Positions 1,294-5,044 of a DNA stretch of 5,725 nt are shown piece by piece (position 1 is the stretch's first letter; the number at the start of each line of letters is the position of its first letter). The position numbers were made by a program, and so were the translations under genes. This DNA comes from a bacterium (GTDB taxonomy: Bacteria; DYJV01; JALVYZ01): positions 1-5,725 of the forward strand of contig JALVYZ010000475.1 of NCBI GenBank assembly GCA_027037705.1, read 5' to 3'. The notes beneath the pieces were generated by a model. It saw nothing but the letters and a program-made list of their open reading frames with translations, did no database searches and was not told the origin of the DNA.

Positions 1294-2310
1294 ATGAAAA
1301 GATTTTTATCAATTTTACTGGTTTTATTATTGATTCCAGTTTTACTTATCGCAGGAAGGTATAAGAAAGAGTATAAATTAAGCTGTGTAGTGGGACCTAA
1401 ATTGTATTGGGGAGAAGGTGCTTCTTTATTTGCAAAAATGGTTAAAGAGAGAACTCAGGGAAGGATTAATATTAAAGTTTATACAGCTGCATCATTGATG
1501 GCAGGAAAACAGACAAATGAGTTTTTAATTTTAAGAAGAGGAGTTGCTGATTTTGCTTTTGCTTCAACTATAAATTGGTCTTCTACAATTAAACAGTTAA
1601 ATCTATTTAATTTGCCATTTCTCTTTCCTGATTATGCAGCGCTTGATAGAGTTACAGAAGGTTATGTTGGTGAAAAGTTAAAACAAATTATTAAGAAAAA
1701 AGGTGTTACAGTTCTCGCATGGGGAGAAAACGGATTTAGGGAAATTACAAATTCAAAAAGACCTATAGTAACACCAGCAGATTTAAAAGGATTAAAAATT
1801 AGAGTAGTTGGGACACCTATTTTTATTGATATAATGAAAGCTCTTGGAGCAAACCCAGTAAATATGAATTGGGGAGAAGCAAAAGTTGCATTTCAACAAG
1901 GTGTAGTAGATGGACAGGAAAATCCAATTGTGGGGATTGAAATTCCTGTTAAGATCTGGCAATTTCATAAATATATTACAGTATGGCATTATGTGATAGA
2001 TCCACTTATGATGGCTGTAAACAATCAGGTATGGAATAGTTTTACTCCTGAGGATAGAGAAATTGTGAAACAAGCTGCGATTGAAGCATCATATTGGGAA
2101 AAAACAATGGTAAGAAAAGGTTTAATCCCGCCAGATTTAAGTGCACTTGACACATTAAAAAAACATGGAATGCATGTAACTGTTTTAACACCAGATCAAA
2201 GAGCAGAATTTAAAAAATTAACAAAACCTATTTATAAAAAATGGGTTCCAATTATTGGTGAAGATTTATATAAAGCTGCATTGAAAGCGATAAATTATAA
2301 AAATAAATAA
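1294..2310 (+). CDS. dctP: TRAP transporter solute-binding protein DctP
   Basis: DctP captures the substrate, usually an organic acid, outside the cytoplasmic membrane and hands it to the DctQM permease, which uses an ion gradient. The 338 residues match the usual family length. Residues 1-20 form a Sec signal peptide (KR, then a hydrophobic run, ending LLIA before G21) with no lipobox cysteine, so the protein is secreted rather than a lipoprotein. Family landmarks are GFREITNSKRPI (147-158), PADLKGLKIRV (161-171) and NWGEAKVAFQQGVVDGQENP (192-211). By family knowledge R170 should be the arginine that holds the substrate carboxylate, while R149 and N210 match other pocket positions known from SiaP. 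The start is fixed by a strong SD. The genes for its membrane partners follow after an unusually long 308-bp gap. The substrate is not predictable; it could be a dicarboxylate, a 2-oxo acid or a related compound. Confidence 0.95.
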   Translation: MKRFLSILLVLLLIPVLLIAGRYKKEYKLSCVVGPKLYWGEGASLFAKMVKERTQGRINIKVYTAASLMAGKQTNEFLILRRGVADFAFASTINWSSTIKQLNLFNLPFLFPDYAALDRVTEGYVGEKLKQIIKKKGVTVLAWGENGFREITNSKRPIVTPADLKGLKIRVVGTPIFIDIMKALGANPVNMNWGEAKVAFQQGVVDGQENPIVGIEIPVKIWQFHKYITVWHYVIDPLMMAVNNQVWNSFTPEDREIVKQAAIEASYWEKTMVRKGLIPPDLSALDTLKKHGMHVTVLTPDQRAEFKKLTKPIYKKWVPIIGEDLYKAALKAINYKNK

Positions 2311-2410
2311 GGCTGAAGATTTAAGGTGGAAGTTCTTTTATATGTTAGTTAAGGTTAGTTGATGTTAGTGAACGGGGAATAGTAATTAAAAGGCTGAAGG
2401 TGGAAGGAAG
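2311..2410. repeat. Two short repeat families at the left of the dctP-dctQ gap
   Basis: The gap after dctP begins with GGCTGAAG (2311-2318) and GGTGGAAG (2325-2332). The same two words recur, fused, at 2392-2399 and 2399-2406. Between them are three 10-bp units beginning GTTAGT, at 2344, 2354 and 2364. No open frame of useful length or terminator is visible here. The words look like dispersed intergenic repeats, but a genome-wide count is needed to say so. Confidence 0.7.
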
Positions 2411-2413
2411 TAG

Positions 2414-2598
2414 ATGCGTAGAGGAGAAAAGGAAGTATATGCGTAGATGAGTAGATGTGAAGATGCGAAAAGAAAAAGATGCGATATATCCAAATTGACA
2501 TATGATGCATTTATATATTATCCCATTTACTCATTATCATATTTACGCATATAAATAAGGACGCATCCACGCATTAACGCATATACGCATTAACGAAT
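2414..2598. repeat. Large inverted octanucleotide array between dctP and dctQ
   Basis: This is the same repeat family as at 1181-1279, but larger and with a spacer. The left arm has one unit at 2414-2421 and then six in 8-bp register at 2439-2486 (ATGCGTAG first, ATGCGATA last). The right arm has ten units in exact 8-bp register at 2519-2598, on the opposite strand, with TTACGCAT at 2543, TAACGCAT at 2575 and ATACGCAT at 2583. Some units have decayed (2471-2478, 2535-2542, 2551-2558) but the register is kept. A 32-bp AT-rich spacer separates the arms and holds a possible promoter. No coding frame spans the region. The RNA could fold into a long imperfect hairpin with several possible pairing registers. 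Confidence 0.87.
2495..2521 (+). promoter_or_regulatory. Possible promoter for dctQM inside the array spacer
   Basis: A perfect -35 box, TTGACA (2495-2500), is followed after 15 bases by TATTAT (2516-2521), one mismatch from the -10 consensus. The spacer is shorter than the preferred 16-18, which weakens the call. A transcript from here would start near 2528 and contain only the right arm of the inverted array, about 90 nt ahead of dctQ. Confidence 0.45.
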
Positions 2599-2618: not shown

Positions 2619-3173
2619 ATGAAAGTAAAAGAAGAAAATCCAAATTTAAAAATTCAGAATTTAAAATTCTCAAAAGAGAATCCTAACAATAACACCAACA
2701 CTACCACTAAACTTAAATGGTTTTTAGATAATTTGGAGGAGGTGCTTGGCGCCTCCCTTTTATTTTCCATGGCTTTACTTGCTTTTATTAATGTTATTAC
2801 AAGGTATTTTATAAAGGTTTCATTTGCTCCAACTGAGGAGCTTGAAGTTAGTGGTCTTGTATATTTAACAATGCTTGGTGCAAGTGCAGCTTTTAAAAAA
2901 GATTTACATTTAAAGCTTATTTTTATTCATTCCAGATTAAATAAAAAAGCTCAAAAATATTTAAACATTTTTTCTTTAATAGTTAGTTTTTTACTATTTT
3001 CCACAATTGCATTTTTAAGTTATTTTCATATAAAAGATGAGATTGACCTACAAATTACAACAGAAGCATTAAATATCCCAGAATGGATTTATGTAATGGC
3101 TATCCCAATTGGATGTATTCTAATAAATATTAGGCTTATTCAAAAAATAATAAAAATCGTAAAATGGGATTAA
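2619..3173 (+). CDS. dctQ: TRAP transporter small membrane subunit DctQ
   Basis: DctQ is the four-helix membrane subunit that associates with DctM. The conserved part starts near residue 36. Helices lie at about 42-61, 77-93, 114-136 and 157-177, with the family's TRYF (61-64) after helix 1, a TEELE stretch (72-76) and GASAAFKKDLHLKL (87-100). Residues 1-33 (KVKEENPNLKIQ..., NPNNNTNTTT) resemble no family sequence and are encoded by simple-repeat DNA. The ATG at 2619 is the first possible start after an in-frame TGA at 2613; the only later alternative before helix 1, apart from the GTG at codon 42, is a TTG at 2733. No SD precedes either. A terminator-like hairpin occupies codons 40-46. The end overlaps dctM by 10 bp. 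Identity is firm; the start is uncertain. Confidence 0.9.
   Translation: MKVKEENPNLKIQNLKFSKENPNNNTNTTTKLKWFLDNLEEVLGASLLFSMALLAFINVITRYFIKVSFAPTEELEVSGLVYLTMLGASAAFKKDLHLKLIFIHSRLNKKAQKYLNIFSLIVSFLLFSTIAFLSYFHIKDEIDLQITTEALNIPEWIYVMAIPIGCILINIRLIQKIIKIVKWD
2738..2766 (+). terminator. Terminator-like hairpin inside the dctQ coding region
   Basis: GGAGGTGC (2738-2745) pairs with GCGCCTCC (2749-2756) around a 3-nt TTG loop, giving an 8-bp stem with one G-T pair. It is followed by CTTTTATTTT. It is the most GC-rich spot in the surrounding AT-rich DNA and has the layout of an intrinsic terminator, although it lies within conserved codons. It may act as an attenuator when dctQ is poorly translated, or be a chance product of codon choice. 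Confidence 0.45.
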
Positions 3174-4444
3174 TTCTATTTGGACTATTTTTTATTTTAC
3201 TAATAATTGGAGTTCCTATTGCAGTCGCAATAGGGGTTGCAGCAATTTTTGTAATCTGGAAAGCTCAACTTGGCATAACAATTGTATCTCCAAATTTTTA
3301 TTCAGGGATTGCAAAGTTTCAACTTTTAGCAATTCCTTTATTTATTTTTGCTGGTTATATCTTTGAAAGATGCGGAATTTCTGAAAGACTTGTAAAATTT
3401 GCAGATGTAGTTGTTGGAAATAGAGTTGGAGCTCTTGCAATTGTTGCAGTTGCAGTATGCGTGTTTTTTGGTGGAATTTCTGGGTCAGGGCCTGCAGATG
3501 CTGCTGCAATTGGTGCTATTTTAATCCCAGCAATGGTGTCTGAAGGTTATAGTAAAGGGTTTACAGCTGCATTAATAGCAGGAGCTGGCTCTACTGCAAT
3601 TGTTGTGCCTGTTAGTATTGCTTTAATTATTTATGGGGCATTAACCAATACTTCTATAACAACACTTTTTGCTGCAGGGATTATCCCTGGAATCATTGCA
3701 GGAATAGCTCTTGTTATACCAGCTTATTTAATATCTAAAAAAAGAGGCTATGGAAGAAAAAGAAAATTTGAAAGTATCTCATTTTTTAAGGCTTTTAAAG
3801 AAGCTTTTTGGGGATTACTTGCACCTGTCATAATTCTTGGGGGTATGTATGGAGGAGTCTTTACTCCAACAGAAGCAGCTGTAATAGCAGTATTTTATGG
3901 TTTATTTCTTGGTTTTATAGTTTACAGAACATTAACTTTTAAAAAATTCTATAAGATTTTAGTTGATGCTTCAAATTCAAGTGCAATTGTTATGCTAATA
4001 GTGACATTAGCTGGGTTGTTTTCATGGGCTGCAAGCACTCTTGGAACTCTTGATGCAATTTCTCATTATCTTTTGTCTTTAAGTAATAATGAATATGTTG
4101 TTCTTTTTTTCATAAATATTATTCTTTTTGTAGCTGGAATGATGATTGATGCAATTTCAATATATTATATATTTCTTCCAATATTTTTACCAATAATCTC
4201 ACAATTTCACTGGAATCCAATATGGTTTGGAATTATTATGACATTTAACCTTGCGGTTGGTCAATTTACTCCACCAGTTGCAGTTAATCTTTATGTTACT
4301 ACTCATCTTGCTGATATAAACATAGAAGAAACTTTTAAAGAGGTTATACCTTTTATTATTTCAATGCTAATAGCTCTTGCTATTTTAGTAGTATTTCCTC
4401 AAATTTCGCTGATTATTCCAAAAATATTTGGAATGTTGAGTTAA
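3164..4444 (+). CDS. dctM: TRAP transporter large membrane subunit DctM
   Basis: DctM is the permease subunit that moves substrate across the cytoplasmic membrane, coupled to ion (commonly Na+) import. At 426 residues it has the normal length and is hydrophobic throughout, with about a dozen helical stretches and basic cytoplasmic loops such as SKKRGYGRKRK (191-201). Family motifs are FFGGISGSGPADAAAIGAIL (101-120), GGVFTPTEAA (230-239) and FNLAVGQFTPPVAVNLYV (361-378). At 149-151 it reads PVS, where many relatives have PPS. The ATG lies inside the end of dctQ (10-bp overlap) with no SD, so translation is probably coupled to dctQ. The stop overlaps the stop of purE on the other strand, and no terminator hairpin follows. 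Confidence 0.95.
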   Translation: MGLILFGLFFILLIIGVPIAVAIGVAAIFVIWKAQLGITIVSPNFYSGIAKFQLLAIPLFIFAGYIFERCGISERLVKFADVVVGNRVGALAIVAVAVCVFFGGISGSGPADAAAIGAILIPAMVSEGYSKGFTAALIAGAGSTAIVVPVSIALIIYGALTNTSITTLFAAGIIPGIIAGIALVIPAYLISKKRGYGRKRKFESISFFKAFKEAFWGLLAPVIILGGMYGGVFTPTEAAVIAVFYGLFLGFIVYRTLTFKKFYKILVDASNSSAIVMLIVTLAGLFSWAASTLGTLDAISHYLLSLSNNEYVVLFFINIILFVAGMMIDAISIYYIFLPIFLPIISQFHWNPIWFGIIMTFNLAVGQFTPPVAVNLYVTTHLADINIEETFKEVIPFIISMLIALAILVVFPQISLIIPKIFGMLS

Positions 4445-4965
4445 TCAAAATCTCCTATAATATTTGGATTTTTCATTGAAAGTCTTTTAGCTTTATCTTC
4501 AACAGACTTTTTCATCTCATTTTTAAAATTATTTAATTTCAATTTTAATTCAGGATTATTCAATGATAGAATCTGAACTGCAAAAATTCCTGCATTTCTT
4601 GCGCCAGCTTTTCCAATAGCCATACATGCAACTGGAATCCCTCCAGGCATCTGAACTGTTGAATATAGCGCATCAACTCCATTTAAGGAAGTTGCAGAAA
4701 TTGGAATTGCAATCACAGGAAGAGTTGTTTTTGCTGCTACTACTCCTGCAAGATGAGCAGCAGCTCCAGCTCCAACAATAAAAACTTTACAACCTTTTGC
4801 TTCTGAAAATTTTATCCATTTTTCGGTTCTTTCAGGTGTTCTATGTGCTGAAGTGACAGTTATAGCATAACTAATTCCAAATTTATCTAAAATACCAATA
4901 GTTTCTTCAATTATTGGAAAATCTGAATCACTTCCAATTAATATTGATACATCAAAATTTTTCAT
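4441..4965 (-). CDS. purE: 5-(carboxyamino)imidazole ribonucleotide mutase (PurE, class I)
   Basis: PurE converts N5-CAIR to CAIR in cytoplasmic de novo purine synthesis, normally after PurK. The 174 residues show the full class I set: GSDSD (11-15) for the ribotide phosphate, SAHRTPE (39-45) with the catalytic histidine H41, GAGAAAHLAGVVAA (65-78), LNGVDALYSTVQMPGGIPVA (94-113) and IGKAGARNAG (117-126). The SAHRTP motif argues against the class II (CO2-using) form. The ATG at 4965 is preferred: GGAGGG at 4973-4978 lies 7 bases upstream. A TTG at 4980 would add MEGNC but overlaps that SD. The C-terminal tail (about 140-174) is Lys-rich. No purK or other purine gene is visible; the neighbours are a TRAP transporter (convergent) and a glycosyltransferase (divergent). 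Confidence 0.96.
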   Translation of the reverse strand: MKNFDVSILIGSDSDFPIIEETIGILDKFGISYAITVTSAHRTPERTEKWIKFSEAKGCKVFIVGAGAAAHLAGVVAAKTTLPVIAIPISATSLNGVDALYSTVQMPGGIPVACMAIGKAGARNAGIFAVQILSLNNPELKLKLNNFKNEMKKSVEDKAKRLSMKNPNIIGDFD

Positions 4966-4972
4966 ACAATTT

Positions 4973-4978
4973 CCCTCC
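4973..4978 (-). promoter_or_regulatory. Shine-Dalgarno of purE
   Basis: GGAGGG on the minus strand, 7 bases before the ATG at 4965. It decides the start against the upstream TTG at 4980, which would place the ribosome site inside the coding region. Confidence 0.85.
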
Positions 4979-5015
4979 AATTATTATAGTATTGGTGTTA
5001 GTGATAGTGTTGGAG

Positions 5016-5044
5016 ATAATAATTTAGTATTTAAATATTGTCAA
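5016..5044 (-). promoter_or_regulatory. purE promoter
   Basis: On the minus strand TTGACA (5044 to 5039), a perfect -35, is followed after exactly 17 bases by TATTAT (5021 to 5016), one mismatch from the -10 consensus. Transcription should start near 5009, giving a leader of about 44 nt that contains the SD. The leader has an uneven composition: C/A-rich on the transcript and G/T-rich on the + strand. Confidence 0.75.

Follow-up and report, generated by a model that had tools for sequence, protein, structure and literature searches.

Convergent arrays of a degenerate octamer in the dctP–dctQ gap of a bacterial TRAP-transporter operon

What is a long block of short repeats doing inside a TRAP-transporter operon? 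The window, by which we mean the whole 5,725-nt stretch of bacterial DNA analysed here, carries, on gene calls that are simple open reading frames, a solute-binding gene (3-1172), dctP for a TRAP transporter solute-binding protein (1294-2310, plus strand; PF03480, E 6e-74), dctQ (2619-3173, plus strand; PF04290, E 1.6e-26), dctM (3164-4444, plus strand; PF06808, E 9.7e-108), a purE-like gene on the minus strand (4441-4980) and a glycosyltransferase gene from 5073 on. The 308-nt intergenic region between dctP and dctQ (2311-2618), within the operon, is a lineage-specific expansion. Our answer, which we hold to be somewhat on the probable side, is that its element is one of many degenerate octamer arrays, a lineage-specific family which has expanded and dispersed in intergenic DNA, and that it would act here as a transcribed intra-operon spacer hairpin.

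The element and its absence from a relative

When scored position by position for the octamer GTnnATGC, the dctP–dctQ gap proves to be filled by opposed arrays of 8-bp period, one on the plus strand in two blocks (2410-2482) and one on the minus strand (2507-2594). A preliminary description of this locus had listed ten right-arm octamers that keep exact register over 2519-2598, and these are as stated, reading TATTATCC CATTTACT CATTATCA TATTTACG CATATAAA TAAGGACG CATCCACG CATTAACG CATATACG CATTAACG; the right (alpha') array as scored holds eleven octamers in register at 2507-2594 (66.6 bits, consensus GCATNNAC), and the dctQ start codon lies 24 nt beyond its end. The six left-arm units first placed at 2439-2486, with an outlier at 2414, are equally real, and are scored in another phase as the left (beta) array at 2435-2482 (34.1 bits, consensus G[AT]A[AG]A[TA]GC), whose units run GTATATGC GTAGATGA GTAGATGT GAAGATGC GAAAAGAA AAAGATGC from 2435, with C almost confined to unit position 8. 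An outlying block of octamer-like units (GTAGATGC GTAGAGGA GAAAAGGA) precedes it on the same strand at 2410-2433 (17.8 bits), and the unit at 2414 owes its departure from the 8-bp register to a 25-bp direct duplication at 2404-2451 (plus strand; TRF period 25, 1.9 copies, 91% matches). The registers first described were therefore correct, but the arrays extend slightly further, and what had been omitted is the non-repeat core of about 24 nt between the arms (TATATCCAAATTGACATATGAT, 2485-2506, plus strand), a relative of TATATTCTAATTGACGTATGA.

Neither array is likely to be a matter of composition, as the best score in 500 dinucleotide shuffles of the gap was 19.1 bits, with a 95th percentile of 12.5, against 34 and 67 bits for the two main arrays. 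The RNA of 2409-2598 is predicted to fold at -44.0 kcal/mol (z = -3.8 against shuffles), which bears out the hairpin that had been proposed. No intrinsic terminator, in the sense of a GC-rich stem followed by a T run, is present in 2300-2760, and no RNA family of Rfam 15 matches anywhere in the window. We also considered the core as a promoter, with TTGACA near 2497, and rejected this, as no plus-strand promoter-like site is found and counts are at shuffle level; the scarcity of octamer arrays in divergent gaps is a further point against it.

The window has a second element of this type between the solute-binding gene and dctP (1169-1275), with a left array on the plus strand at 1169-1240 (71.5 bits), a right array on the minus strand at 1244-1275 (33.3 bits) and a fold z of -5.7. 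The dctP–dctQ gap itself holds further short-period repeats, such as the plus-strand array of GTTAGTTAAG.. past the dctP stop (2344-2369). In dctQ, the first 31 codons (2619-2711, plus strand) are extra, low-complexity repeat sequence, the tblastn match to the orthologue in genome G001 beginning at residue 32; this extension is made of short repeats (..NPNNNTNTTTK), and repeat growth appears to enter the coding sequence. A hexamer-like array, CTAACAATAACACCAACACTACC, and its complement form an inverted pair of their own, at 2683-2710 by the dctQ start and at 4987-5018 upstream of the purE-like gene.

G001, from the same order, is the one other genome with which we could compare within the phylum; like all the genomes compared here it is a draft bin. 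Its dctP, dctQ and dctM orthologues are 70, 67 and 76% identical to those of the window, and its dctP stop is separated from the dctQ ATG by 5 nt, as against 308 nt here. The 308-nt gap and the 31 dctQ codons are therefore either specific to the window's lineage or lost in G001, and gain is the simpler reading. No arrays of the octamer pattern were found in G001, and no relatives of DctM in the genome contig set that was searched. The preliminary description had staked its reading on related genomes keeping the inverted layout or the 8-bp register, and G001 keeps neither, so that the refuting outcome it named has come about in part; but G001 is only an order-level relative, with different repeats, and what this comparison shows is a recent origin and not an absence of function.

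A dispersed family with fixed polarity

Is the element a local accident? The source genome (2.05 Mb in 496 contigs) contains 65 exact ACGCATnnACGCAT pairs, and the genome-wide intergenic family that had been suggested is indeed there: 52 array clusters in 531 kb of contigs compared with 2 in shuffles, although this sample was partly picked for array matches, so that array counts rest on such contigs, and the cluster count is slightly inflated, the contig ends L174 and L190 being the same locus. The arrays are nearly all non-coding (93% or more in one count, whose 'reversed sequence' control is invalid, as the reversed unit resembles the unit). The inverted layout also holds throughout, since all 24 paired clusters are convergent, plus then minus, and none has the opposite order. 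Flanking genes are codirectional for 40 of the 42 clusters with both neighbours known, compared with 95 of 121 gaps overall (binomial P about 0.003, or 0.0024 with 41/43), and reading in the direction of the downstream gene one meets the preceding stop, then the left array, the core, the right array, the ribosome-binding site and the start.

On its G strand the right array has the consensus GTnnATGC, where nn is mostly A or T and sometimes G, and unit positions 1-7 are nearly free of C, in a count whose unit filter had fixed positions 1, 5 and 7. The end of the right array lies a median of 24-25 nt before the start codon. Arrays that stand alone belong to the right type, and of 28 such arrays 22 face a start codon; some of those at contig ends may have been cut off. 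In several elements of the genome the core TATATTCTAATTGACGTATGA recurs, oriented alike relative to the downstream gene, and with it, also in one orientation, the left-array anchor GAATTAT. The shared core and anchor thus point to common descent of copies that were dispersed, and such copies stand at different loci, as those of a MITE or mobile palindromic element do; the similarity between them fades without clear ends.

What fixes the layout? From each gene edge it is the C-poor strand that reads inward, and the arrays are always convergent because of this polarity. For the right side, avoidance of false starts is one likely cause: towards the start codon the right array presents an orientation nearly free of false start codons, with 11 per kb on the sense strand of right arms and 135 per kb on the antisense strand. 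Counting against an explanation linked to start codons is a right-type array next to an apparent tRNA gene, with no start codon involved; it was read by eye at about 5025-5160 of L183, upstream of what resembles a tRNA-Ser gene in place of a protein gene.

Two side observations concern the same gaps. Other degenerate short-period families occur there (GGAGTCGGGAGTGC, GAAGGTTGAAGGCT, GTTAGTTGAGGTTAGTTGATG, GAATCACGAACTACGAACC and AATAACAATAAATTAC, in L174-L193, L222-L234 and the window at 2311-2400). In the post-stop halves of codirectional gaps the sense-strand G skew is strong in the source genome (0.41) but not in G001 (0.05), and divergent gaps of the source genome are without this post-stop pattern.

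Arm pairing, unit growth and the octamer frame

Similar convergent octamer arrays are not confined to this genome, and stand at scattered loci of other bacteria; examples come from bins of Nitrospirae (L069), Desulfofervidaceae (L064) and Phycisphaerae (L078). At the Nitrospirae locus (L069:4323-4480, bin GWC2_56_14) an entire gap between two genes consists of them, and the rare unit GTCTAAGC stands in both arms. The idea that GTnnATG recurs across phyla because it is special in itself was rejected, with matches in 7 of 386 genomes compared with 2 and 6 for control octamers. In G097, a small genome in one long contig, repeated, near-identical genes carry GTnnATG arrays at their 3' ends (L264, L270 and L281).

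It was through a control octamer that a further case came to light, namely the genus g99 (G098 and G365; L305-L317, L320-L329, L336 and L339), which is unrelated to the source genome and has gaps filled by convergent arrays of the octamer TGGRAGTR, with what appear to be dozens of hairpins in its genomes. Like the octamer family of the window, these are hairpins in 8-bp register that fill intergenic gaps with the C-poor arm first; unlike it, they have a different unit and higher GC, lie also between converging genes, and give mostly much stronger folds (about -23 to -112 kcal/mol). G098 and G365 have four orthologous hairpins in two syntenic stretches that are about 92% identical; site and inverted layout agree between the species, and units and unit numbers differ (for example, arms of 64/64 nt in one species and 96/80 nt in the other).

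A hairpin selected for base pairing of its arms, as the preliminary description had considered, is the reading that such a layout brings to mind. Every paired array is convergent, the folds are strong, the g99 layout is kept at orthologous sites despite sequence turnover, and at two g99 loci rare units are common to both arms and missing in the sister species. When arms were swapped among elements, all oriented by gene (an unoriented version is misleading, mixing arm types and coming out worse than random), true pairs nevertheless did no better than permuted ones, at a mean of -29.6 and -30.9 kcal/mol, respectively (P = 0.90), and in g99 the same energy test gave P = 0.47-0.64. The longest stretch common to both arms is no longer in true than in permuted pairs of the source genome (P = 0.94); likewise, homogenisation of arms as a general rule in g99, which two loci had suggested, was not significant over 18 elements (P = 0.34). 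Left and right arms of the source genome differ in consensus, single arrays are common, with no inverted partner upstream of 13 of the 20 tested, and the swap tests revealed no compensatory changes between arms, whether among paralogous copies or at the four orthologous loci of the other genus. Selection on pairing thus finds no backing here and we regard it as improbable; with no advantage of true arms and most of the single arrays tested partnerless, the hairpin cannot be the whole story.

A more serious rival, if in our judgement still an unlikely one, is neutral growth, in which slippage and quasipalindrome template switching enlarge dispensable spacer DNA and the polarity is simply what neighbouring genes tolerate, a gene being preceded by no false start codons. 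The arrays are, after all, lineage-specific and absent in G001, several unrelated families of short period are packed into the same gaps, unit numbers vary between the sister species of g99, and in g99 a unit resembles those at lag 1-2 somewhat more than those of different elements (9.8% and 8.2% versus 5.3%). Template switching is, in addition, reported to create and maintain RNA hairpins (PMC8794818). In the source genome, on the other hand, a unit is no closer to its neighbour than to a distant unit: 4.1% of adjacent units are identical compared with 5.1% of units from different arrays, and permuting unit order within arrays leaves neighbour likeness unchanged, so that the growth by unit duplication that had been proposed left no trace of this kind.

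The main evidence against neutral growth is the frame itself. Six left arms that are homologous differ by 23 changes, of which unit positions 3, 4 and 8 account for 17 (P = 4e-4 if changes were spread uniformly, on columns that are few and not fully independent), and therefore the frame has been held with the spacer positions near saturation; drift after slippage would strike all positions equally, yet the frame persists and positions 1-7 have hardly any C. The octamer frame GTnnATG is, in short, constrained while three positions drift. Part of this constraint could be mutational bias and not selection. One might also imagine an RNA- or DNA-binding regulator that reads GTnnATG (CATnnAC in the sense direction) every 8 nt just upstream of starts, as has been suggested for TAACTGA repeats; for it speak the conserved frame with its free spacer positions and the single arrays in fixed orientation near starts, a placing which those repeats share (PMC4679880); the left arms have another consensus, and we give such a binding array little credence.

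Known kinds and a possible role in the operon

How new is all this? The earlier suggestion of an undescribed class was too strong, given that the kind, namely short-period, degenerate intergenic repeats that are lineage-specific and able to fold, is known from cyanobacteria and Beggiatoaceae, although we found no match in open-licence papers for inverted octamer arrays or for this octamer family itself. The closest known kinds are the cyanobacterial STRR hairpins and the TAACTGA arrays upstream of start codons, and our element is of the same kind as these, but its unit is 8 bp long and its two arms are strand-polar. STRR repeats, whose function is unknown, are likewise degenerate short direct repeats, mostly intergenic and many per genome, and some form hairpins within operons (PMC2670836). 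The octamer family shares with them an exact register with degenerate copies and a large number of mostly intergenic sites; it differs in its period of 8, its strictly convergent pairs and its common core, STRR units being 7 bp, of other sequences and cyanobacterial. The TAACTGA repeats of marine Beggiatoaceae, Cyanobacteria and Bacteroidetes are intergenic, lineage-specific and fixed in orientation just upstream of starts, and relatives have shorter gaps at these loci without obvious repeats (PMC4679880). Single octamer arrays have such an orientation too (22/28, at a median of 24 nt), with the unit CATnnACG in place of TAACTGA; the TAACTGA unit is 7 bp and nearly invariant, and inverted pairs of it are rare (one indirect repeat), whereas inversion is the rule for paired octamer elements. 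The P6b heptanucleotide hairpin of the Nostoc trnL intron also has a stem both of whose sides are degenerate repeats and whose length varies with unit number (PMC3488679), but lies in a group I intron, with a 7-bp unit, and is not intergenic.

What, then, might the element do? In the polycistronic mRNA it would, on the predicted fold, form a long and imperfect hairpin that stands between dctP and dctQM, and by analogy such a hairpin may keep expression of the membrane subunits separate from expression of the binding protein. REP/BIME elements are dispersed intergenic palindromes inside operons, as between malE and malF, where they are thought to separate the expression of neighbouring operon genes; a REP, unlike an octamer array, is a short, conserved palindrome with a link to RAYT transposases. 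In being dispersed, intergenic, palindromic and intra-operon these elements resemble the octamer family (PMC2817692). The other analogue is the set of STRR hairpins between hupS and hupL, for which a function in transcript stability or translational coupling has been proposed (PMC2670836).

More tentatively, it is possible that intergenic hairpins evolve time and again in unrelated bacteria from lineage-specific, degenerate octamer arrays in inverted layout, always with the C-poor strand first, and that a common process, whether one of mutation or one of selection on nascent RNA, fixes the 8-nt register and the G-first polarity regardless of the letters. A caution for the field is that 'arms' which match in such arrays may mimic a selected stem even where they show no covariation. 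Intergenic repeats of this degenerate, short-period sort have been on record for decades and their function is not agreed; a fixed frame with drifting spacers, a polarity set relative to genes and the orthologous hairpins of g99 make both their origin and their function testable by comparison of sister genomes.
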